Origin: Collybia mongolica
Lineage: Eukaryota > Basidiomycota > Agaricomycetes > Agaricales > Clitocybaceae
DNA: 64,000 nt
Assembly (NCBI GenBank): GCA_013420905.1
Contig: JAAXNY010000021.1
Coordinates: 341,773-405,772 of the forward strand
Direction of reading: 5' to 3'
Shown here: positions 43,986-63,444 of the stretch, piece by piece
Layout: each line of letters opens with the position of its first letter
Numbering within the stretch: position 1 is the first letter of the stretch
Notes under the pieces: model-generated
Database searches by the model: none
Told to the model about the DNA's origin: nothing
The model's input: the letters and a program-made list of their open reading frames with translations, nothing else
Made by a program: the position numbers and the translations under genes

Positions 43986-44440
43986 TGGAGTCCTTTCGTG
44001 TGTAGGTTGGGCATAGCGATTGTAGTAGTACCCGAACATTTTTTCGAACTCTCATTACATTTCTCTGCTTCTGGATTATTACGCGACGGCGCTCGTCGGG
44101 GGTATTGAAGATTAACGCAAATGTGTGGAATCATGCCTTTCAAAAGCAGAACTGTGCAGGGGAGGATTGAGGTGCAAACAGGAATGTATCCTATTGTGTA
44201 CGATTGTATATTGTTACCATACTGATTCATACATTCAGACCAGTCAGAATACCAAGGGTTCGAAACCAGTCCATCAACCAGGCTGCGCAAAACAATGAGA
44301 AGAGTATGGGTCAGGAATGACTACGGGAATTGCATCCTCTGCGACAAAATTCTCGACTACAAGCTCAACGCCGCCCCTGGTTCAAGCTCTTCCCACCCTT
44401 ACTTCTCACCCGAAAACGCGGACAAGTGTGGTTAGGGTTG
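43986..44440 (+). other. Core/subtelomere transition
   Basis: No gene. It contains the gene relic at 44273-44317 (annotated separately) and ends where telomere-like repeats begin. Confidence 0.5.
44273..44317 (+). pseudogene. Relic of exon 1 of the unknown gene at 52171
   Basis: About 45 bp align with 52192-52233 (ATCAACCAGGCTGC, CAAAACAAT, AGAGTAT, TCAGGAA) with few mismatches and one 3-nt insertion, encoding INQAAQNN(E)KSMGQE against INQAAQNNKSIDQE. The relic retains a CpG where the other copy has none. It shows that a relative of that gene once lay at this junction. Confidence 0.5.
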
Positions 44441-44506
44441 GTTATTTAGGTTATGGGGGCTTTTTTGAATGGATTTGAGACCCTAGGGTGTAGGGTAGGG
44501 TAGGGA
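44441..44506 (+). repeat. Degenerate telomere-like junction tract
   Basis: TTAGGG, TTAGG and TAGGG words (GGTTAGGGTTGG, TGTAGGGTAGGGTAGGG) directly abut the start of repeat A at 44502, matching the telomere-joined left edge of the other A copies. Confidence 0.6.
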
Positions 44507-44894
44507 GGAACGAGCAACCGAGCGAAGCGAGGTTGCGAGTGACTTTGGTACGATGAGTTGCGTTACAAACAAGCAACAGGGTTGGGGGAATCCCCCACCC
44601 GACCTGTTTCGTATAAGTACTCATCAGGCCTGTTTGTTAATGTTTAATCAGTTTCTCCGCTCGCGCCGCCGCACCGTTACGGCGCGCGCGCGGTTTTTCC
44701 GAGCGACCACAGCGTAAACCCCTCAGACACATGTTGCGCCATGTGAGGGGGTGTGCGCTGGCATGCGCGCTCGACGCGCATGGAACGCGGTCCATGTTGG
44801 CCCGCCCTACCTTAGTATTTATCCGATACGCGGATCAATTTCGGTTAGCTATTCACCGACGCGGATCAATAAAGAAGATGGATCTCGTGCCTGG
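44502..44894 (-). repeat. Repeat A, copy 1 (solo long repeat of the telomeric Penelope-like element)
   Basis: Near-identical to 58824-59214 and 63503-63880. No attached reading frame is present at this copy, so it is a solo repeat or a remnant of a 5'-truncated insertion. It carries a hammerhead ribozyme on the minus strand. Confidence 0.8.
44565..44637 (-). ncRNA. Type I hammerhead ribozyme, repeat A copy 1
   Basis: Read on the minus strand: 5' stem I strand ACAAACAGGC, core CUGAUGA, stem II GUACUUAUAC (loop CUUA), core GAAA, stem III CAGG...CCUG with an internal G5/C5 hairpin, then UU and the 3' stem I strand GCUUGUUUGU. Every conserved core nucleotide is present, including the A-U pair next to the cleavage site. 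Predicted cleavage lies between 44575 and 44574. The loop of the inner hairpin differs by one base from the other copies. Confidence 0.85.
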
Positions 44895-44908
44895 ATTAGG
44901 GTTAGGGA

Positions 44909-45455
44909 GGACGACAACACAAACGCGAAGCGTTTGGGTTGGAGGACTAGTTGAGTAGGCGGAAGGGGTCCCGATAAGGATCGATGGTTGGATTCCACCG
45001 GTCGGATCCTTTCGTCTTTTAAGACTCTTCAGATCGGGTTTTTTTGGGTATACGTGTTGCTGCGGACTTTCACTTTATTCCGAAGTTAGGCGAAAGTCGG
45101 GATACTTAGTCATCTACCTGTCAGAGGTGGCCAATGGCCATTTGCGCGCATGACAGATGCGCAGTCGCTTCCATAGCGTCTGGCAGATCGGAATAGAGCA
45201 CGACATCGCCGAAGCGGGCTTACTAACTCTGCCCGAAGGCAGTGTGTTGGGCACCAATCGGCGACCGTCTATTAACGACCTTGACAACCTGTGGGAACAA
45301 AGCCAAACGGATTACTCCGGTCAGCTGTAATGATTAGCAACCTTTCACACGTCACGGTCGTTTCGGACCGGGCACGTGGCCTTTAACCGTCCATGTCGGG
45401 TCGGTGATCGGATCAAAGTCCGGTCCGGCTCAGGCGGGTTAGGTTGGGTTAACCG
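44909..45455 (-). repeat. Repeat B, copy 1
   Basis: First of three tandem B repeats downstream of the 3' end of the inner Penelope-like element. It begins GGACGACAAC, has a CGAAGCG-centred inverted repeat, and ends in a GGCACGTGGCC region with an extra 70-bp tail shared with copy 3. It is the most diverged copy. Confidence 0.8.
44970..45038 (-). ncRNA. Type I hammerhead ribozyme, repeat B copy 1 (variant stem I)
   Basis: Minus strand: stem I CCCGAU/AUCGGG, core CUGAAGA, stem II GUCU-UAAA-AGAC, core GAAA, stem III GGAUC...GAUCC, then UU before the cleavage site (between 44976 and 44975). Relative to the other B copies the outer stem I pair changes from A-U to C-G on both strands, which is compensatory evidence for the structure. 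Confidence 0.85.
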
Positions 45456-45463
45456 GTTAGGGT

Positions 45464-45938
45464 GGACGACAACAAAAACGCGAAGCGTTTTTGTTGGAGG
45501 ATATAGTTGAGGGACGGAAAGTTACCGATAAGGATCGATGGAGGAGACCACCGGTCGGATCCTTTCGTCTTTTAAGACTCTTCAGATCGGTTTTAGGGTG
45601 TATACGGGTTGCTGCGGACTTTAGCTTTGTTCCGAGGTTAGGCTAAAGTCGGGATACTTAGTCATCTACCTGTCAGAGGCGGCCAATGGCCATTTGCGCG
45701 CATGACAGATGCGCAGTCGCTTCCATAGCGTCTGGCAGATCGGAATAGAACACGACATCGCCGAAGCGGGCTTACTAACTCTGCCCGAAGGCAGTGTGTT
45801 GGGCACCAATCGGCGACCGTCTATTAACGACCTTGACAACCTGTGGGAACGAAGCCGAACGGATTACTCCGGTCAGCTGTAATGATTAGCAACCTTTCAC
45901 ACGTCGCGGTCATTTCGGACCGGGCACGTGGCCTTTAA
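45464..45938 (-). repeat. Repeat B, copy 2
   Basis: Shorter copy lacking the 70-bp tail of copies 1 and 3. It is joined to copy 3 by GGTTAGTGTAGGGTTAGG. Confidence 0.8.
45524..45591 (-). ncRNA. Type I hammerhead ribozyme, repeat B copy 2
   Basis: Stem I ACCGAU/AUCGGU, core CUGAAGA, stem II GUCUUAAAAGAC, GAAA, stem III GGAUC...GAUCC, UU. Predicted cleavage between 45530 and 45529 on the minus strand. Confidence 0.85.
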
Positions 45939-45958
45939 GGTTAGTGTAGGGTTAGGTT

Positions 45959-46503
45959 GGACGACAACAAAAACGCGAAGCGTTTTTGTTGGAGGATATA
46001 GTTGAGTAGGCGAAAATTACCGATAAGGATCGATGGAGGAGACCACCGGTCGGATCCTTTCGTCTTTTAAGACTCTTCAGATCGGTTTTAGGGTGTATAC
46101 GGGTTGCTGCGGACTTTAGCTTTGTTCCGGAGTTAGGCTAAAGTCGGGATACTTAGTCATCTACCTGTCAGAGGCGGCCAATGGCCATTTGCGCGCATGA
46201 CAGATGCGCAGTCGCTTCCATAGCGTCTGGCAGATCGGAATAGAACACGACATCGCCGAAGCGGGCTTACTAACTCTGCCCGAAGGCAGTGTGTTGGGCA
46301 CCAATCGGCGACCGTCTATTAACGACCTTGACAACCTGTGGGAACAAAGCCGAACGGATTACTCCGGTCAGCTATAATGATTAGTAACCTTTCACACGTC
46401 ACGGTCATTTCGGACCGGGCACGTGGCCTTTAACCGTCCATGTCGGGTCGGTGATCGGATCAAAGTCCGGTCCGGCTCAGGCGGGTTAAGTTGGGTTAAC
46501 CGG
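45959..46503 (-). repeat. Repeat B, copy 3
   Basis: Lies next to the 3' untranslated part of the inner Penelope-like element and, together with copy 4 at 50542, bounds that element. It is nearly identical to copy 4 in the shared part. Confidence 0.8.
46019..46086 (-). ncRNA. Type I hammerhead ribozyme, repeat B copy 3
   Basis: Same stems and core as copy 2. Predicted cleavage between 46025 and 46024 on the minus strand. Confidence 0.85.
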
Positions 46504-47033
46504 TTAGGGTTAGGTTCGGTTAGGTTAGGGTTCGGGTTAGCTAATTCGTTCAATGTCAGATTGACGTAGATCGGATGCATTAAGCAAACAAGTACTCACG
46601 GTTAGGGTTAGAGTTAGGGTTAGTATGTCTCTAAGAGCCTCGGTTAATACCGTCTGTCGTTAGGACATAAATCGTGGTACTTACAAAGTATCAACAACGG
46701 TTTAATTTTTACCGCTAAGAATAGATGGAAACAATACCCACGGGCCGCAACAAGAGCGTCCCCGAGGGTAAACAAACGCACGCACGTAAGCGAGCCGTTC
46801 CGGGTCTAAGGAGTTCCCCGCACAGGGAAGGGGATCTACCGGTATATCTCCGCCGATCAAATTCGGCTGCTTTTCGCCACATTGGACTACTTAGACTCAC
46901 GCTGTCATAAGACCAGCGGTCGTGGGACCGATAGAGATCTGATAGGTTAACTCCGACCAGGGATGGCAAGAAGCTCACACGCTGCTACGCCCCAAAGCGC
47001 CCGATCAACTTGGACCGGGGCAACAGGTTAAGT
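46504..47033 (-). other. 3' untranslated region of inner Penelope-like element, with telomere-like tracts
   Basis: No gene. Telomere-like words cluster at 46500-46540 and 46600-46625, then unique sequence runs to the stop codon of the reverse-transcriptase frame. Confidence 0.6.
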
Positions 47034-50000
47034 TCACACGACGTCCTCCACTCGAGTGGGTTCGCCGCGGATATTGTATAGGAACGACAGATTTTGTCTT
47101 TCTAGAGAACCGGTCGAGCTAGTGTCATCACTAGAGTCATTAGCTGGTTCGTCATCGTTAGATTCTAGGGACATATTCTGTTCCAGAGCTTGTTCTTCCA
47201 TCTTGGATAATACAATTTTTTTCCAAAGACTAGTAAGGTCAAATAAATTGCGTGTCCGCTTCTTGGACACGATGAATCGACGTTTGTCGAAACCTATTTT
47301 CGTAATGTCAGGGATAGGCGCGAGCCCATCCGCCGTCTCGATCAAAGAGTTAAACTCCTCAACCGAGGACTTCAGACCGTGAAGATCCGAACTGAATTTC
47401 GGGAACACAATACCATATCGGTTATGTGTGGCGGCGTTAATCCAACCCCGCCAGGTTCCGAGAACTGTATCTCCGAGTTTCTTAGCGTTAAAGTAATCCC
47501 ACGCAAGGTTATATTCGGACTTAAGCACAAGAATGTCACTAGAGCGTTGCCGTGACTCAGAATGGCGTTTTTCCCACCGTTCTCGTACATTATGCTTAAT
47601 CCAGGAATAGACCAAGTCAGCTGGATAACCACGTTTAATATAAAGGGCAGCCAAGCCCGATATAGCGTCCTGGTAGTGTGTATAAAGACTACAGAGTGTG
47701 GCCAGCCGTGACATTTCTCCCACGAATGTCCCCCGTTTCACATCTAGGGGGTGGGAAGAAATCCATGGGATTCTTTCTTGATGCGAACGTGCTTTGCGAT
47801 AGGGCATCCACTGTAACTCCGAATATTGATCGCGATACAGGGTTAAGTCCAGGAAAGGCTGATGCGATTCCGACACGTTCCATTCAATAACACAGCCATC
47901 GAATTGAACACACGCGAGGTGATTGAGTGCTTCCGCTTCTGAGGAAGCATATACAATCGCCGCGCAATCATCGATGTAGCGCCCGTAAAAAGGTACGAGC
48001 GTGTTAGTCAAGATTCCACAAGATTCTTCGAAGAACCAGCCAAATAGATTGGCTAAGTCCGGAGAAGACGCAACGCCCATAGCTAGGCCGCGCGTTTGTT
48101 TATAGAATTTATCTTGAAACTGTGTGATCAGGTTACTGTTTCCAGTCGTGAGACACCGAACAAAGATGTCGTATTCATGTAACTCTTGTTTGGTAAGCCG
48201 GTCTTTACACGTGTCGAAACTTTCGCCAAAGTAGTGCCTCTCGTAGAGATTGAGTATGACCTCAAAACATCTCTCTATGGGTATATTTGGGTAGAAAGCG
48301 ACTACGTCGCCGGTAACGATGTAGAATCGTCGTCCACGTTGGAATTTTACCTGCCTTAATTTTAACACCAAGTCTTTTGTTCCGTGTATAACGGTTGGTG
48401 CCGATTTCACAATCGGTTTAAGGATTTTACTCACGTACTTCGCCGCAGGGTTTTGGATCGCACTATGACATGGAATGATGGGCCTCATCTTGACGGGTTC
48501 CTTGTGTATTTTGGGAATTCCGTAAAAGATGGGAACGTTGTGCTTTTCCCCTTTCGGGGTTATTTGATGTCGCATAAAGGTGCAGACTTGCGGGTTGGAG
48601 ATATGCGCTTCGCAAAGCTTTGCTATTTCCTCCATTTGGGTACATTGAGTTTTTAAATAACTATTTGCTACTAGCTCGTGTAAAGGTAGATAATTACTTT
48701 CATCGGCCAATAGATCTAAACATTTTTCTATGATCCAGTCTCGTTTAGATACAGCTATTCCCAGGTTCTTATCTGTGTTCGTAACCACGTATTTGTTATC
48801 AAACAAGAACTTTCGAATGCGGGATACATTGGGCTCTAACGAGTAAAGGCGGCCCTTTGCTTCTTCACGGGGCATATTGCGGATCGTTTCATATACGAAG
48901 CCGCGGCCACGGGTGAGTCCTAATTCGAGATAGCTGGGTAACTTTGGGGGTTCTGCCGTTGATATGTGAGGTACCTCAAAGTCGGGATCATAGGGGGCGT
49001 CGTCGTTTTCGAACGTAAACTTAAGACGCCAGCGAATTCTTCGATCGAAGTCGCTCCACGCATCTTTCAATAGTTGAGTGTTGCGCGGTGTGGGGAACAT
49101 AAAGTTCATTCCCACACTAAGGTCATGTTCGATTTCGATTGGCAAGCTTACTTCAGGGGAGCGGTGAACATATGATTTATACTGGGATGCCGTAATAATG
49201 TTTACAGGAGTACGTAATAATATGTAATTAATAGCGTCCGGGTAAGATAACGTTAGTATGAAATCCGGGTAGGTAGAGGGATGATCGTACCGGAATACGA
49301 CATTGGGGGATAGACGCGTGTCTACCGGCCCCGTCCCTGTCCTCGACCCGGCTTGCCGCCTCGACCGCGGTTGCCTCCGCGGAGAGGTTTCCCGCCCCGA
49401 ACTGCCGATACCCTGGCCTTCTTGGCCGGTTTGGGTACGTATGGTTCGGCGGCCCTCGAGCGTTTCAGCTTCGATGAACCGGCGGCGGTGTTGTTGCGAT
49501 TGGGCGAAGGCTTGGACTTCTTCCCCTGATCCTAAAGGGGAGTCTAAAGTTAGCCGAGAAGAAGAAGCGAATGCGTTAGCACTTACTTTTCCCTTGGCGC
49601 CTTTACCGGAGGCCTTCGCAGCGTTGAGCTTTTTCATTTGGGCGGCTACTGCTTTGTCGACCATCGACTGTACCGTCGATTTGTCATTGCCGGAGAGATC
49701 GGTCATCTCAACGTCAGCCGCTTGCTTGAGCGTTACCTTTTTCTTAAAGCGGAGGGCCCGTGCGTCCTCCTGCATTTCCGTGATGGTAACTACACGGTAG
49801 GCATACACGACGCAGTCGTCCCTGACTTGTTTGCCAAGTTCGAACTGCGCGTCGCTCATCTTAAACCCCTGCAACTCCGGTTCCCCGGCCGCGTTGGTAA
49901 CAAACATCGGTACCTCCGATGCTTTCAGGCGCTGCGAATAGTGGGCTTCCACTATCGGCTGAAGTTCCTTGAACAGGTTCCTCGGTTTAATAGCCTCACT

Positions 50001-50435
50001 TAGGAAAGTGACCTCGTCTGTCTTGGCGCGGATCATGTTGGTGAGATTCTCCGCGAGGTATTTCTTATGGGCGGCGTCAAGGGCGGCTTTATGGGCCGCG
50101 GCTTGGGCGTCCGCGCCGAAGTCCTTGCTCATTTGGACTTCGGGGGCTTTAGATCGTAAGATCGTGGGATATGTCCCAGCAGCCTCATGCTGCTGCCACT
50201 TGGCAAGAGTGGTTCGCGCCGCAATCAACTTTTCAGTTGTAGTGCGGACGCCCATAAGGGGCTCGCGAAGGACCTGACGATAGTCAGACGGGATCAGGGA
50301 AATGAGCTCGTCAATCGTATTAGCCCCTTGCAGGACGATATGACGGGCCATCTGTGATGCCGAGCTCGTTACATCCCCATCGATGATGACGGAGGCTGCA
50401 GCGAGCGGGGAGAAAGCTCTAGCGAAAGATGACAT
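47034..50435 (-). CDS. Penelope-like ORF1-reverse transcriptase fusion, inner element
   Basis: 1133 aa. Residues 1-280 form a helical, Lys/Ala-rich ORF1-like region shared with the outer element (LDAAHKKYLAE, SKAPEVQMSKDF). Residues about 280-380 are an Arg/Ser/Gln linker encoded partly by a retained intron. The RT follows: FYGIPKIHKEPVKMRPIIPC, GDVVAFYPNIPIERC (motif A Asp), RGLAMGVASSPDLANLFGWF (motif B), and YIDD at residues about 820-823 (motif C), then HPLDVKRGTFVGEMSRLATL, typical of Penelope-like RTs. The C-terminal 230 residues lack the GIY-YIG and CCHH motifs. It makes cDNA from the element RNA. The start is the first ATG about 170 nt after the upstream ribozyme cleavage site. The frame is intact, so the element may be recently active. 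Confidence 0.88.
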   Translation of the reverse strand: MSSFARAFSPLAAASVIIDGDVTSSASQMARHIVLQGANTIDELISLIPSDYRQVLREPLMGVRTTTEKLIAARTTLAKWQQHEAAGTYPTILRSKAPEVQMSKDFGADAQAAAHKAALDAAHKKYLAENLTNMIRAKTDEVTFLSEAIKPRNLFKELQPIVEAHYSQRLKASEVPMFVTNAAGEPELQGFKMSDAQFELGKQVRDDCVVYAYRVVTITEMQEDARALRFKKKVTLKQAADVEMTDLSGNDKSTVQSMVDKAVAAQMKKLNAAKASGKGAKGKVSANAFASSSRLTLDSPLGSGEEVQAFAQSQQHRRRFIEAETLEGRRTIRTQTGQEGQGIGSSGRETSPRRQPRSRRQAGSRTGTGPVDTRLSPNVVFRYDHPSTYPDFILTLSYPDAINYILLRTPVNIITASQYKSYVHRSPEVSLPIEIEHDLSVGMNFMFPTPRNTQLLKDAWSDFDRRIRWRLKFTFENDDAPYDPDFEVPHISTAEPPKLPSYLELGLTRGRGFVYETIRNMPREEAKGRLYSLEPNVSRIRKFLFDNKYVVTNTDKNLGIAVSKRDWIIEKCLDLLADESNYLPLHELVANSYLKTQCTQMEEIAKLCEAHISNPQVCTFMRHQITPKGEKHNVPIFYGIPKIHKEPVKMRPIIPCHSAIQNPAAKYVSKILKPIVKSAPTVIHGTKDLVLKLRQVKFQRGRRFYIVTGDVVAFYPNIPIERCFEVILNLYERHYFGESFDTCKDRLTKQELHEYDIFVRCLTTGNSNLITQFQDKFYKQTRGLAMGVASSPDLANLFGWFFEESCGILTNTLVPFYGRYIDDCAAIVYASSEAEALNHLACVQFDGCVIEWNVSESHQPFLDLTLYRDQYSELQWMPYRKARSHQERIPWISSHPLDVKRGTFVGEMSRLATLCSLYTHYQDAISGLAALYIKRGYPADLVYSWIKHNVRERWEKRHSESRQRSSDILVLKSEYNLAWDYFNAKKLGDTVLGTWRGWINAATHNRYGIVFPKFSSDLHGLKSSVEEFNSLIETADGLAPIPDITKIGFDKRRFIVSKKRTRNLFDLTSLWKKIVLSKMEEQALEQNMSLESNDDEPANDSSDDTSSTGSLERQNLSFLYNIRGEPTRVEDVV
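49322..50435 (-). CDS. Spliced ORF1-only (Gag-like, RGG-tailed) product of inner element
   Basis: A 55-nt intron (49586-49532, minus) has GTAAGT, an internal GCTAAC branch-like word and a TTTAG acceptor. Removing it joins 50435-49587 (283 codons) to 49531-49322 (70 codons including TAG) in phase 0. The new tail is strongly basic and ends in RGG-type repeats (GGNRGRGGKPGRGQGRGR), a typical RNA-binding composition. Without splicing the frame stays open into the reverse transcriptase. An alternative acceptor 12 nt upstream gives the same frame. Inferred role: RNA-binding nucleocapsid-like protein. Confidence 0.65.
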
Positions 50436-50541
50436 ACTGACTAAAAACTGGAGGGGGGGTCCCTGAAGTAATTTGGTGCGAAGGGGAGTACGGTACGTGT
50501 AGTCAAAGGCGGGGAACTGAATGCTATATATGGGTTAGGGT

Positions 50542-51011
50542 GGACGACAACAAAAACGCGAAGCGTTTTTGTTGGAGGATATAGTTGAGTAGGCGAAAAT
50601 TACCGATAAGGATCGATGGAGGAGACCACCGGTCGGATCCTTTCGTCTTTTAAGACTCTTCAGATCGGTTTTAGGGTGTATACGGGTTGCTGCGGACTTT
50701 AGCTTTGTTCCGGAGTTAGGCTAAAGTCGGGATACTTAGTCATCTACCTGTCAGAGGCGGCCAATGGCCATTTGCGCGCATGACAGATGCGCAGTCGCTT
50801 CCATAGCGTCTGGCAGATCGGAATAGAACACGACATCGCCGAAGCGGGCTTACTAACTCTGCCCGAAGGCAGTGTGTTGGGCACCAATCGGCGACCGTCT
50901 ATTAACGACCTTGACAACCTGTGGGAACAAAGCCGAACGGATTACTCCGGTCAGCTATAATGATTAGTAACCTTTCACACGTCACGGTCATTTCGGACCG
51001 GGCACGTGGCC
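50542..51011 (-). repeat. Repeat B, copy 4 (5' long repeat of inner element)
   Basis: Same sequence as the tandem copies. It lies 5' of the reverse-transcriptase frame and is joined on its left by GGGTTAGGGT. It stops at GGCACGTGGCC, where the AT-rich block begins. Confidence 0.85.
50602..50669 (-). ncRNA. Type I hammerhead ribozyme, repeat B copy 4
   Basis: Stem I ACCGAU/AUCGGU, CUGAAGA, stem II GUCUUAAAAGAC, GAAA, stem III GGAUC...GAUCC. Predicted cleavage between 50608 and 50607, about 172 nt before the ATG of the element frame, which would set the 5' end of the element RNA. Confidence 0.87.
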
Positions 51012-51027
51012 TAATAATCTGATCCAA

Positions 51028-51047
51028 GGATGTTCACGTGAACATCC
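51028..51047. repeat. Perfect 20-bp palindrome at the left edge of the AT-rich block
   Basis: GGATGTTCAC followed by its exact reverse complement. It sits between the end of repeat B copy 4 and the start of the tandem AGTTCCGCC array. Confidence 0.6.
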
Positions 51048-51715
51048 AAGTGCTGCAGTTCCGCTGGAGTTCCGCCCCAGCCTAAGAGGCAAGTTCCGCC
51101 AGAGTTCCGCCTGCCAAAATATGAGTTCCGCCAGAGTTCCGCCAGAGTTCCGCCAGCCAAAGAGATGAGTTCCGCCAGTGGTGCAGTTCCGCCAGAGTTC
51201 CGCCTGCCAAAATATGAGTTCCGCCAGAGTTCCGCCTGCCAAATATGAGTTCCGCCAGAGTTCCGCCAGCCAAAGAGATGAGTTCCGCCAGTGGTGCAGT
51301 TCCGCCAGAGTTCCGCCAGCCAAAGAGATGAGTTCCGCCAGTGCTGCAGTTCCGCTGGAGTTCCGCCCCAGCCTAAGAGGCAAGTTCCGCCAGAGTTCCG
51401 CCAGCCAGATGATTTCCACTGGAGGTCCACCACCAGGTATGAGTTCTGCCAGAATTCCGCCAGTCAAAGTACGAGTTCTACCCTAAGGCATGAGTTCCGC
51501 TAGGCTAAGAGGTGAGTTCCGCTGGAGTTCCGCCTGCCAGGTATGAGTTCCGCCAGAGTTCCACCAGTCAAAGTAAAAGTTCCACCCTAAGGCATGAGTT
51601 CTGCTAGGCTAAGAGGTGAGTTCTACTGGAGTTCTGCCAGTCAAAGTGCAAATTCTATTATAAAATATCAGTTCTGCCAGAGTTCTGCCAGTCCAGGAGG
51701 TGAGTTCAACCAAAC
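51048..51715 (+). repeat. Tandem AGTTCCGCC-type array with a C-to-T decay gradient
   Basis: Higher-order units of GAGTTCCGCCAGAGTTCCGCC plus short spacers (GCCAAATATGA, GCCAAAGAGATGA). The left two thirds keep CCGCC. From about 51555 onward the same words read CTGCC, CTGCT or CCACC. Minus-strand translations of the repeats are repetitive artefacts. Confidence 0.75.
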
Positions 51716-57024: not shown

Positions 57025-57691
57025 CCTTGGTATATATATATATACTATTCTATGTCTAGGCTATTTGAATTTTACAGATCTAAAGATCTAACTGGCAATC
57101 TCTGATAATTATCTAAGTCCAAATGGAATTTTAAATAAAATTCAAGTTGCCAAATAGATTATCTAACACCTGATCTAAGCTTAGCATCACTTCAAAGTTA
57201 TAATTAGAGAGTTATCTAAATCTAATAATCTAATCTTACTATCTAACATCTGATCTAAGCTTAGTATCACTTCAAAGTTATAATTAGAGAGGTATCTAAA
57301 TCTAATAATCTAATCTTTCTATCTAACACCTGATCTAAACTTAGCATCACTTCAAAGTTATAATTAGAGTGTTATCTAAATCTAATAATCTAATCTTACT
57401 ATCTAACACCTGATCTAAGCTTAGTATCACTTCAAAGTTATAATTAGAGTGTTATCTAAATCTAATAATCTAATCTTACTATCTAATCAGGGCTTCTGAG
57501 TCAGGGCTTCAAAAGAAAATTTCCTAGATCATGAAAATTTTTTTTTTAGACCCTGACCTAAAAATTTTTAGATCAATAAAATTTTAAGGTTTAAACCATA
57601 TATATAGTACAGGCTTTTAAGATGCATTTATCTAACCCCCTGCCCCCCCCCATTTTTTCTTCCAGTTAAACAACTAGTCTAGCTTTACCTG
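57025..57691 (+). other. Spacer between the two AT-rich genes
   Basis: Holds the 80-bp tandem array and a C9 run near 57642; no gene. Confidence 0.5.
57161..57485 (+). repeat. 80-bp tandem repeat, about four copies
   Basis: The phrase TTAGCATCACTTCAAAGTTA (or TTAGTATCAC...) recurs exactly every 80 bp at 57181, 57261, 57341 and 57421, with few differences between copies. Confidence 0.8.
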
Positions 57692-59895: not shown

Positions 59896-62800
59896 TTAGA
59901 GAGTTACTCCAGTAGGGTCCGCGTTCACTCCGAGCCTAAAACCTTGGTTCCAAGCAAGGACGAAGGGGTCCAACTCTGAGTCCGCACGCTCGCGCGTGTG
60001 AATGGTTTCGATCCGTTCCCTGTTCACAATGTTAGGAGTGGGGTTTATAGTTCTTACTACCGTATTCTGGGGGTTACCCACGGGCTCATTGGGTACAGCC
60101 TTTCGTGCTGCATCCTTGTCTAAGTGTTCGATAACAATCTTTTTCCAAAGATTTACGAGGTCGAAGAGATTGAGAGTGCGTTTGCGGCTGACAATCCATC
60201 GGCGCTTTAGGATATCTAGTTTCCGTATATCTGGTATTGAGGTCGTCGTACCGTTAGTGACCTGAAGACGCACGGTGTACGCCTCCGGGACTCCATCGGC
60301 CAACTTGCCCAAAGATCCAGATAATTGTGGGAACTCTATGGGGGGTAAGCGATTCCCCTCCGTAGCTGCCTGGTTATGGTTTAGCCATAACGACCAGAAA
60401 TCCGTGATTGTGTTACCCAATTCTCGAGCAGAGAAGTAATTCCAAGCAGTATTGAATTCAGACTTAAGCACCAGAACACTGTCTAGCTCTCCAGAACCCT
60501 TAGACTCTGATAGACGTTTCTGCCATCGTTCTGCCATATTGACCGAAGTCCACTGCAATACTAATTTCACTGGATAGCCACGCTGTATATAGAGTGCACG
60601 AAGCGAGTCTATAGCGTTCCGGTAGTTCTGAAATGTACTACTCAGGGTGGCTAAACGGGACATCTCGCCCACGTAAGTTCCTCTTTTTACATCTAGAGGG
60701 TGGTGAGAGATCCATGGAATTCTTTCCTGATGCGATCCACTTTTCCGATAGGGCATGTGTTGCAAGCGGTTCTGCATATCAATGTATAACATCATATCTA
60801 GGAACGGCGCTTGTCTATCAGATGCGGACCACTCTATTTCGCAAGATTCGATTTCAAGTGTTTTAACAATGCGAAGGGCCTCATCAGCAGAGGCAGCATA
60901 CACAATTGCTAAACAATCATCTATGTATCGACCGTAGAAAGGTATTCTCGGGTCGTTCAAAATGTTGCATTTCCTTTCAAAAAAGACCCCGTAGAGGTTC
61001 GCGAGATCCGGGGAATCCGCTACTCCCATTGCGAGTCCATGTAATTGAAGGTATATATATTTTTGAAAGCGAAATATAAGGTTACGATTCCCAACTTCTA
61101 GTGCAAGTATGAATGCCTGAAGGCCACGCAGTACGTGCTCGTCAAGGTGCATGAAATTGATGTAGTCAGGATCCAGTCCGGTGATATATTCAAGATACAT
61201 GTCGGTAACAATATCTATACAACGTTGAATTGGTATATTAGGATAGTAGGCAACAATGTCGCCCGTGACGATAAAGAATTTCTTCCGATTTGAAATAGTA
61301 ACCTTACTCAATTTGATCGCCAGGTCTTTGGTACCATGTATAATGGATGGCGCCGCTTTGATGAGCGGTTTGAGTTTTTTCGAAACAAATTTAGCGGCTG
61401 GATTCATGACCGCCGAGTGACAGGGTATTATAGGTCGCATTTTAACAGGTTGTTTATGTATCTTAGGGATACCATAGAAACATGGCAAGTTTGCGAGATC
61501 ATACGTTTCTCCAGCATCAGGTATGAATTGACGGAACCAATCCAATAGCTGGTCACAGGGTTCGTCGCTTAAGAGCATAGCCTTTTGGGCAAGCTCGTCC
61601 ATTTGTTCGATTGTTTTCTTAATGTAGGTGGTGGCGATGAGAGGATGTAACATCTTATAATTAGTTTCATCATCAAGGAGCTCCTTACATTTCTCTATTA
61701 GCCAGTCACGCCTAGACACCGAAATGCCAAGATTTTTATCGGTGGGTGTTAGGACATAATTGTTATCTAGCAGCCACCTTCGAATTCGGGTAGTGTTAGG
61801 CCGGGGCGTTGACGGCGCAGCTTCTTCCGCGGGTATTTTAGCGATTGTGTTTTCCACAAAGTACTGACCACGACGGATCCCTAGCTCGATATAGTCTGGT
61901 AACAGAGGAACTTTTCCTGAGGGGGGGCGGTTAAGTTCATAGTCTGGGTCATAGAGAGAGTTAGATTCTGGGTTGGAGAAGGCAAAGTATAGGCGCCATC
62001 TCAGGCGACGCGAGAAATCTTTCCAAGCGTCTAGAATTAATTTAGAGTTTCTTTCTGACTTAAACATATAATTCATTCCGACAGATAAGTCATACTCGAT
62101 GTTTTTCGGGAGATTCACACCAGGAGCGCGATGGATAACGTTCTTATATCTATTGGCATCAATTACAAATATGGGTGTATTTAACAATATATACGAGCGC
62201 GCAAGTGGGTATGGAATGGTTAGCAACCAGTCAGGCCAAGTGTAAGGATTCTCGTACCGGAATGATGGAATTGGCGGCGGTAAATCAAATACAGTAGTGT
62301 CGTTGCCTACTTGGACGACGACTTCTTGGCTCCCCGAGGGCCAGGCTTCCCAGCCTTCCCTTTCCCCTTGAGACCTTTGCCATTCTTCTTCATCGCGGCG
62401 AGTTTTGCGGCTTGGCGCGGTTGAGGAGCCTTCTTCTTGGAGGCGGTCTTCTTGGGGGCGGTAGAGGAGGATGACTTCTTGGCGGCTCCCTTCTTGAATC
62501 GGAGATCCTTGAGGGGAAGAAGTCAGAACATGAGAGTGTGAGCGACCGCGGTGACGTACCTTGGGCGCGGGAGTCCTCTTCTTGATGGCTTGGTCGACGG
62601 CCTTCTGGACTAACTTACTTAAGTCCTTCTGCTTGACGGCATCATCACCGTCGTCGACATCCATCTTGTCTCGGAGATCCTTCTTAGCCTCTTTCTTCTT
62701 AGTGACGGCAAGGTGGGCCGCCTCCACAAGGGAGACGACGCGGAGTCCGATGATAGGGAGATCACGGGCGACTAAAAGGTAGTTAGATTTGGACGCAGGG

Positions 62801-63444
62801 TCCGGTACCCAACCTGTGATCTTAACCTCTCCTTCTTCATCACCGTCCTCGAGGATAGGTCGCTTCCTGCGCGCCATCTCGACCTTGCTGGTGTCGGTGA
62901 CGGGGACGATGAGTCGGTTGTAGAGTTGCTTAGGCTCGAGGGAGGTTTGCAGCGTTGTGAGCTCGACTTCTTTGGCGACGAGAGCGTCCTTGAAGATCTC
63001 AGCCTGATACTTTTTGTGAGCATCAAGAAGTCGTTTCTTGGCTTCGTCAGCTTCGAATGACTCAACGAAATCCTTGGAGAATTGGATTTCGGGCGCCTTA
63101 GACGCGAACGTTGCAGGAGTAGTGCCAGCGGCTTGGTGGGAACGCCACTTTTCGACTGTATCGCGAACAGAGACCATGCGTTGTGCAGTGGCGCGAATGC
63201 CTTTGAGGGGCTCAGTCAAGCACTGAACGTACTCACCCGGGATGGTGTGGAGTAGTTCGTCGAGGTTGTTAGCCCCGAAGTACAGGTGAGAACGAGCCGT
63301 GTCCTGGGACACAGTGTTCGAAGATGCCTGTCTCGCGGTCGACGCTTGAGATTGTTTAACCCCAAAGTGAGGATCAACATCGGAAAGGGAGATGTTGGCG
63401 AGGTTGGAAGGGGAGAGAGCGCGAAAAAAAGCGGTGCTAGACAT
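59896..63444 (-). CDS. Penelope-like ORF1-reverse transcriptase fusion, outer element
   Basis: 1182 aa from ATG at 63444; the frame is open further upstream to 63573 within the ribozyme, but MSSTAFFRALSP aligns with the start of the inner element protein. The ORF1-like region (to about residue 295) shares DELLHTIPGEY, GIRATAQRM and KAPEIQFSKDF patterns with the inner copy. RT motifs: FYGIPKIHKQPVKMRPIIPC, GDIVAYYPNIPIQRC, HGLAMGVADSPDLANLYG, YIDD at about residues 840-843, and HPLDVKRGTYVGEMSRLATL. No endonuclease follows. The two elements are clearly related but diverged along their whole length, so they are separate families or lineages. The intact frame suggests recent function. Confidence 0.88.
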   Translation of the reverse strand: MSSTAFFRALSPSNLANISLSDVDPHFGVKQSQASTARQASSNTVSQDTARSHLYFGANNLDELLHTIPGEYVQCLTEPLKGIRATAQRMVSVRDTVEKWRSHQAAGTTPATFASKAPEIQFSKDFVESFEADEAKKRLLDAHKKYQAEIFKDALVAKEVELTTLQTSLEPKQLYNRLIVPVTDTSKVEMARRKRPILEDGDEEGEVKITGWVPDPASKSNYLLVARDLPIIGLRVVSLVEAAHLAVTKKKEAKKDLRDKMDVDDGDDAVKQKDLSKLVQKAVDQAIKKRTPAPKVRHRGRSHSHVLTSSPQGSPIQEGSRQEVILLYRPQEDRLQEEGSSTAPSRKTRRDEEEWQRSQGEREGWEAWPSGSQEVVVQVGNDTTVFDLPPPIPSFRYENPYTWPDWLLTIPYPLARSYILLNTPIFVIDANRYKNVIHRAPGVNLPKNIEYDLSVGMNYMFKSERNSKLILDAWKDFSRRLRWRLYFAFSNPESNSLYDPDYELNRPPSGKVPLLPDYIELGIRRGQYFVENTIAKIPAEEAAPSTPRPNTTRIRRWLLDNNYVLTPTDKNLGISVSRRDWLIEKCKELLDDETNYKMLHPLIATTYIKKTIEQMDELAQKAMLLSDEPCDQLLDWFRQFIPDAGETYDLANLPCFYGIPKIHKQPVKMRPIIPCHSAVMNPAAKFVSKKLKPLIKAAPSIIHGTKDLAIKLSKVTISNRKKFFIVTGDIVAYYPNIPIQRCIDIVTDMYLEYITGLDPDYINFMHLDEHVLRGLQAFILALEVGNRNLIFRFQKYIYLQLHGLAMGVADSPDLANLYGVFFERKCNILNDPRIPFYGRYIDDCLAIVYAASADEALRIVKTLEIESCEIEWSASDRQAPFLDMMLYIDMQNRLQHMPYRKSGSHQERIPWISHHPLDVKRGTYVGEMSRLATLSSTFQNYRNAIDSLRALYIQRGYPVKLVLQWTSVNMAERWQKRLSESKGSGELDSVLVLKSEFNTAWNYFSARELGNTITDFWSLWLNHNQAATEGNRLPPIEFPQLSGSLGKLADGVPEAYTVRLQVTNGTTTSIPDIRKLDILKRRWIVSRKRTLNLFDLVNLWKKIVIEHLDKDAARKAVPNEPVGNPQNTVVRTINPTPNIVNRERIETIHTRERADSELDPFVLAWNQGFRLGVNADPTGVTL
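62307..63444 (-). CDS. Spliced ORF1-only (Lys-rich tail) product of outer element
   Basis: The 52-nt intron 62559-62508 (minus; GTACGT...CTCAAG) joins 63444-62560 (295 codons) to 62507-62307 in phase 0. The new C-terminus is very basic (KKGAAKKSSSS, KKTASKKKAPQ, KGKGKAGKPGPRGAKK) and ends at TAG 62309-62307. Unspliced RNA stays open into the RT. Its position and frame effect match the inner element, although intron and tail sequences differ. Inferred nucleic-acid-binding Gag-like protein. Confidence 0.65.

Follow-up and report, generated by a model that had tools for sequence, protein, structure and literature searches.

An optional 3n+1 intron as a candidate switch between a basic-tailed ORF1 protein and a reverse transcriptase fusion in fungal telomeric Penelope-like elements

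In BARE1, a Ty1/copia retroelement of barley, gag has a small alternative intron close to its end: removal of this intron shifts the frame into a stop, leaving Gag only, whereas the unspliced form keeps gag and pol in one open reading frame (ORF), and about half of the TATA2 transcripts are spliced (PMC3735527). copia of Drosophila and EVD of Arabidopsis (Ty1/copia, shGAG) likewise dedicate a spliced RNA to Gag, with Pol carried by the unspliced RNA (PMC3735527, PMC8892269). The splice-switch strategy itself is already known, then, from these three long terminal repeat (LTR) retroelements. Among Penelope-like elements (PLEs), the ORF of one Pen5 copy in the rotifer A. vaga is interrupted by a spliceosomal intron, and fungal genomes are described as containing only endonuclease-deficient members (PMC3846280); hammerheads are described for every PLE sequence available and also for telomeric terminons (PMC6155905, PMC6431247). 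Here we describe two related elements, inner and outer, in a stretch of 64,000 nucleotides from the fungus Collybia mongolica (the window; C21:341773-405772 of a 46 Mb assembly in 26 contigs), in which the retention or removal of a 55- or 52-nt intron would decide between a reverse transcriptase (RT) fusion and a shorter protein with a basic tail.

Layout of the inner and outer elements

The inner element lies on the minus strand, and its fused ORF runs free of stops from ATG 50435 to TGA 47034 (1133 codons). Its parts are as follows:

49587..50435, minus strand: exon 1; the ATG and 283-codon N-terminal (Gag-like) part, common to both predicted products
49532..49586, minus strand: optional intron of 55 nt (3n+1), GTAAGT...CTAAC...TTTAG; stop-free in the fused frame
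49322..49531, minus strand: dual-coding overlap; if spliced, a 69-codon basic/RGG tail and TAG; if unspliced, the linker to RT
47037..49321, minus strand: RT part; no in-frame ATG over 70 codons past the tail stop
47034..50435, minus strand: fused ORF with the intron kept; Gag-like part, linker and RT, 1133 amino acids

The initial annotation had placed a 55-nt 3n+1 intron at 49586/49532 inside an open frame, and this proved exact to the base: the ends read GTAAGTGCTAACGC...CGGCTAACTTTAGACTCCCCTTTAG (49586-49532), and the length of 55 nt leaves a remainder of 1. In the fused frame, the intron encodes the peptide VSANAFASSSRLTLDSPL. The 69-codon RGG/basic tail and stop said to follow intron removal were reproduced by translation of the spliced sequence, which gives a product of 352 amino acids with the C-terminal end ...RGGKPLRGGNRGRGGKPGRGQGRGR and a TAG stop at 49324-49322; this tail is rich in K, R and G, with YVPKPAKKARVSAVRGG and RGG repeats, and the overlap that encodes it occupies the 210 nt between intron and RT. 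As read from the sequence, an alternative upstream TTTAG would give a 43-nt intron, also 3n+1, with a stop three codons later. Among the donor, the branch CTAAC and the final AG, the sole base that varies between the inner-family copies compared is donor +3 (A/G). The RT part contains TDKNLGIAVS and YIDD, which we take to be RT motifs.

The name "Gag-like", also used in the initial annotation, is kept here as a positional label. The position and the basic tail agree with it; no Pfam family or convincing PDB relative was found. Nor was there any recognisable capsid or zinc-knuckle homology: by sequence, a profile search of PDB gave no match, and a search with exon 1 gave ORC4 as its best match (E=0.37). 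The label does not denote homology to a retroviral-type Gag. Exon 1 is 39-62% identical to the annotated Gag-only fungal proteins P0121-P0125.

A tblastn comparison of the inner fused protein with the window revealed a second, diverged element (63.4-60.1 kb) with 44% identity over its whole length:

62560..63444, minus strand: exon 1, starting at ATG 63444
62508..62559, minus strand: candidate intron of 52 nt (3n+1), GTACGT...CTGAC...CAAG
62307..62507, minus strand: dual-coding overlap; 66-codon lysine-rich tail and TAG (62309-62307)
59896..63444, minus strand: fused ORF, an open frame of 1182 amino acids

This outer element repeats the inner layout of 3n+1 intron, open fused frame and basic tail. 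Across the genome, the two families that they represent are 44-46% identical.

Constraint on the two frames and their recurrence

Searching the genome with the inner protein gave 27 matches, some of which are pieces of one element. Nineteen copies span the intron site (10 of the inner and 9 of the outer family), with an intron of 55 or 52 nt in all. Both frames are open across the site in every one of the 19, and no stop lies between intron and RT. Outside the site, some copies are damaged: RT is interrupted by a stop in outer copy C4, and 5' parts are missing from inner copies C7, C15 and C17. Spliced retrocopies were sought and none was found: no DNA corresponding to the spliced junction occurs in the genome at up to 2 mismatches.

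Substitutions between copies indicate which frame is constrained. For the inner pair C21 and C9, 80 of the 106 changes in exon 1 and 110 of the 149 in RT are at third codon positions of the fused frame. In the overlap, the same pair shows 8 synonymous and 10 non-synonymous codons in the tail frame (P=0.0055) as against 1 and 15 in the fused frame (P=0.43). Similar values were obtained for C21 and C26a (P=0.0085 in the tail frame, 0.75 in the fused frame) and for outer copies C21 and C11b (P=0.0055 and 0.78); the overlap thus fits the spliced frame in three of four comparisons and the fused frame in none (P 0.43-0.78). Within the inner intron, 9 codons differ between C21 and C9; read in the fused frame, 7 of them encode the same residue (P=0.0015) and the other two are R/K and L/I exchanges. 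When the donor, branch and acceptor are left aside, third positions of this intron remain the more variable ones among four copies (7/14 vs 3/27, P=0.010), and C21 and C9 taken alone give P=0.029. In the outer intron, the middle drifts and the splice signals are kept. Because of these patterns, the tail appears to be selected as protein and the linker only to stay open; the intron peptide is perhaps selected in one family.

An open fused frame could have arisen by chance, and this was set aside on the basis of the substitution tests and of synonymous recoding of the tail. With the codon usage of exon 1, the chance that a recoded tail leaves the fused frame free of stops was P=0.035 (inner C21), 0.043 (inner C9) and 0.003 (outer C21); with that of RT, the values were 0.009, 0.014 and 0.005, respectively. 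A lysine-rich tail readily creates stops in the fused frame. The lack of an in-frame stop in the intron alone is unremarkable (shuffle P 0.57-0.69). Past the tail stop, the RT frame is free of ATG for 70 codons in the inner and 76 in the outer element, and this stretch is common to both families (for example, FRY..P.T.PD..LT..YP.A..YILL.TP). Ribosomes must therefore reach RT from upstream or begin it at a non-AUG codon.

Searching with the fused protein found 221 proteins, of which 120 were listed and analysed; outside the source genome, the relatives are known as proteins only, and their +1 frame was reconstructed from codon probabilities. DNA relatives were absent from one viral and one bacterial/archaeal genome scan. 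Gag-like part, linker and RT occur in one ORF in 94 of the 120 listed relatives; the other 26 start within or past the Gag-like part, at either a contig end or a frame break. The reconstructed +1 frame of the 90 usable linkers is enriched in K/R (0.253 vs 0.197 shuffled, z=20.5), the +2 frame of the same linkers is not (0.186 vs 0.185, z=0.8), and control stretches in +1 give z=3.5 for RT and z=0.0 for Gag. Single linkers exceed z=1.64 in 71 of 94 cases in +1 and in 10 of 94 in +2; in 7 of 94, the +1 value is below 0.5, with P0109 at -2.9. When relatives are clustered into lineages at 70% RT identity, +1 is positive in 55 of 57 and above +2 in 51 of 57. The initial annotation had looked to relatives for a conserved 3n+1 intron: DNA bears this out in two families of the source genome, and beyond that genome the proteins suggest it for most of the 57 lineages.

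Motifs were also counted in the 94 linkers. A donor-like [KR]V[SR] is found in 69 (11.1 shuffled). A possible GKGK occurs in +1 in 76 (12.2 shuffled) and in +2 in 53 (34.2 shuffled), and is raised in frame 0 as well (16 vs 0.2). YVPKP occurs in 14 (1.8 shuffled) in +1 and 4 (2.4) in +2, and YVPK alone is weak (19 vs 11.1 in +1). For KKK, the counts are 48 (23.6 shuffled) in +1 and 51 (46.4) in +2; for GGK, 75 (51.5) and 92 (89.4). An RGG test was uninformative, and a regular-expression count of "AS" as GC-type donors (22 of 94 linkers) was rejected as unreliable. By eye, the linkers of P0034, P0037 and P0116 show KAS instead of KVS where the donor would lie, the reading expected of a GC-AG donor (GCAAGT). 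Also by eye, P0047, P0056, P0069, P0094 and P0105 share [IV]AD[FY]F in the would-be intron stretch, as GCTGAC followed by a pyrimidine tract would read.

Searches with the spliced Gag and with a Gag profile yielded 9 distinct Gag-only proteins, eight from named fungi and the ninth being P0126; the profile search, limited to the 7995 candidates with the most shared words, missed P0123 and P0125, which had been found earlier. A tail of the spliced type is present in five of the nine, namely P0121, P0122 and P0127 of Collybia nuda, P0125 of Phellinidium pouzarii and P0128 of Lactarius psammicola. Among the others, P0123 ends shortly past exon 1, P0124 and P0129 are shorter, and P0126 includes the linker. 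The fused protein P0094 and the Lactarius protein P0128 share ...KAAR, after which P0094 has 16 extra residues (VSANSDRYSLIADFFA); past these, the +1 frame of P0094 matches the P0128 tail from its first residue (33/40; z=34.7 in +1, -0.1 in +2). An offset of 16 codons plus one base implies a 49-nt, and hence 3n+1, intron in another lineage.

Production of the reverse transcriptase

Intron retention in a single pre-mRNA is, in our judgement, probably how RT is produced, and it is the best explanation of the two frames; the toggle put forward in the initial annotation, in which splicing decides between an ORF1 product with an RGG/basic tail and a fusion with RT, is supported as the best reading of these sequences. 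One pre-mRNA with one optional 3n+1 intron would yield two proteins. Splicing would join exon 1 to the basic/RGG tail and its stop, giving the ORF1 protein alone, probably an abundant RNA-binding product. Retention would carry exon 1 in frame through the intron and the 210-nt overlap into RT, giving an ORF1-RT fusion, and the product ratio would then depend on splicing efficiency. The unspliced RNA would be both RT message and genomic template, and its use as template would explain the absence of intron-less copies. Splicing itself, translation of the retained RNA, a stoichiometric purpose and the unspliced template are inferred. We lean, by a modest measure, towards a wider form of this proposal: that an entire clade of fungal telomeric PLEs switches between ORF1 and RT by intron retention and not by frameshifting, with a dual-coding overlap and with unspliced RNA alone able both to encode RT and to act as template, so that an RT acting in cis would favour copies with the intron and tie telomere addition to the nuclear splicing state.

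Several points weigh against retention as the source of RT. The case for the toggle is drawn from sequence throughout, and the deposited fungal proteins of spliced type are gene models. A milder test of the open frame, in which the tail's own codons were shuffled, gave P=0.067 (inner C21), 0.099 (inner C9) and 0.076 (outer C21). In the fourth comparison of the overlap (C26a and C9), the tail frame reached only P=0.17, with 0.43 for the fused frame. The fused linker shows absence of stops and no amino-acid constraint, and fused-frame constraint was not seen in the outer intron (P=0.46). Only 13 of the 94 fusions were aligned to a spliced tail, and z exceeds 3 in +1 in four of them, including P0103, which has a similar score in +2; the 12 pairs other than P0094 and P0128 range from -0.3 to 5.4. 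The shuffle z-scores overstate independence because the relatives are kin, and the set of 94 is biased towards fusions because it was found with a fused query. The small number of Gag-only matches (9) counts against that bias: the Gag parts of all 94 fusions would pass the E-value cut of the Gag-only searches, and 75 of the 94 share at least 2 query words.

Frameshifting by -1 is used by many retroviruses, and the alternative that survives best is that the intron is always spliced and RT is reached by -1 ribosomal frameshifting in the tail/RT overlap of the spliced mRNA. The geometry suits it: a 3n+1 intron puts the RT frame exactly -1 to the tail, the two frames overlap by 223-259 nt in the spliced RNA, and inner copies C21 and C26a have GGGAAAA or GGGAAAG at the junction. 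The strict form X XXY YYZ is, however, absent from inner C9 (which has looser forms only), outer C21 and outer C11b, so no slippery heptamer is conserved among the copies tested, and frameshifting leaves unexplained both the stop-free intron in 19 of 19 copies and the coding-type changes in the inner intron. We regard this alternative as disfavoured and improbable. It is less likely still that splicing is constitutive and serves ORF1, with RT translated separately (by reinitiation, an internal ribosome entry site or a non-AUG start) and the fused ORF incidental. ORF1-only gene models in annotated fungi and the unconstrained amino acids of the fused linker would fit this; the first 70-76 codons of the RT frame lack AUG though they are common to both families, and the fused frame is open beyond chance and in the 94 of 120 listed relatives. 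Finally, the idea that nothing is spliced, GT...AG being coincidental and the tail being reached by +1 frameshifting on an intronless message, draws on the constrained look of the inner-family intron residues but is scarcely credible, given that both families preserve the donor, the branch and the final AG whereas the middle of the outer intron varies (for which reason the intron as mere coding sequence was rejected), that the deposited Collybia, Phellinidium and Lactarius gene models lack intron residues, and that P0094 and P0128 are offset by exactly 16 codons and one base.

If intron retention does produce RT, the host spliceosome would control a telomerase-related reverse transcriptase at chromosome ends, and these elements would have a natural reason to keep an intron. 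One stretch would code in two frames under different constraints, as part of a concrete, testable expression strategy that may recur in dozens of relative lineages.

Identity of the elements and comparison with known systems

The sequence is best explained as that of an endonuclease-less, telomere-associated Penelope-like retroelement. Seven type I hammerhead motifs occur in the window, all on the minus strand and all in pseudo-LTR copies of the two elements, which is the arrangement expected of a PLE:

50532..51012 (approximate), minus strand: 5' pseudo-LTR of the inner element, with a hammerhead motif at ~50600-50670
44902..46427 (approximate), minus strand: three more inner pseudo-LTR copies downstream of the inner ORF, with a hammerhead motif in each
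63628, 58949, 50663, 46080, 45585, 45032 and 44627, minus strand: hammerhead motifs matched by script

The script was written after the motifs had been spotted by eye, and Rfam reported no hammerheads in the whole window at the gathering score or in 44400-51100 at E≤5. At 45032, stem I shows a compensatory change (ACCGAT/ATCGGT to CCCGAT/ATCGGG). A dense array of GGCGGAACTC-type repeats occupies 51049-51640, just upstream of the inner 5' pseudo-LTR, and tandem repeats with an 80-bp period lie at 57080-57559.

RT assignment by Pfam is weak: RVT_1 was matched below the curated cut-off in two of four relatives scanned (P0072, E=1.2e-5; P0001, E=0.0023), and at E≤0.1 no family, hence no RVT_1, was found in either full-length window protein. 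A GIY-YIG endonuclease was not found by Pfam hidden Markov models at E≤0.1, which missed RT too. At the same threshold, neither protease nor integrase was found between gag and RT, which does not support a place among the Ty1/copia LTR retroelements.

Location agrees with the PLE assignment. The right end of the window is the contig end and reads as telomeric repeats. Every one of the 27 genome matches is no more than 97 kb from a contig end and has its 5' end facing outward, the position and fixed orientation expected of endonuclease-deficient PLEs (the two on contig C26 say little, since that contig is just 45 kb long). At the end of C17 (L009), an inner copy that has lost its 5' part runs straight into a long CCCTAA array. 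On C15 (L010), a truncated inner copy is joined to an outer pseudo-LTR via CCCTAACCCTAAA, ~3 bases before the intron, and yielded no spliced product.

To our knowledge, the expression of anything besides RT has been little studied in PLEs. In the parts of the literature searched, no splice-controlled switch between ORF1 and RT is described for PLEs, Coprina and Athena included; novelty for PLEs is not proven, because the 2007 PNAS and the 2014 and 2017 MBE primary papers lie outside that coverage. The Collybia elements resemble the endonuclease-deficient PLEs Coprina (fungi) and Athena (rotifers) in their putative RT, pseudo-LTRs with hammerhead motifs and position at chromosome ends, with no endonuclease domain seen. 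As in retroviral gag-pol, RT in the spliced RNA would stand at -1 to the tail frame and overlap it at length; the Collybia elements differ in that a slippery site is not common to all copies tested and the intron frame itself is kept open. Whereas copia removes ~2.95 kb of pol, the Collybia elements would remove 52-55 nt; EVD couples splicing to early polyadenylation, whereas in the Collybia elements RT would lie downstream of the tail stop. BARE1 is the closest working analogue: there too, loss of an optional intron where gag ends closes the ORF ahead of RT, a likeness that holds here at the sequence level only. The Collybia elements belong to another retroelement class, in a fungal host, with no integrase or protease seen. 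The BARE1 intron is of 104 nt and its stop comes three residues past Gag, whereas the Collybia elements have a conserved, dual-coding basic tail of 66-69 codons.

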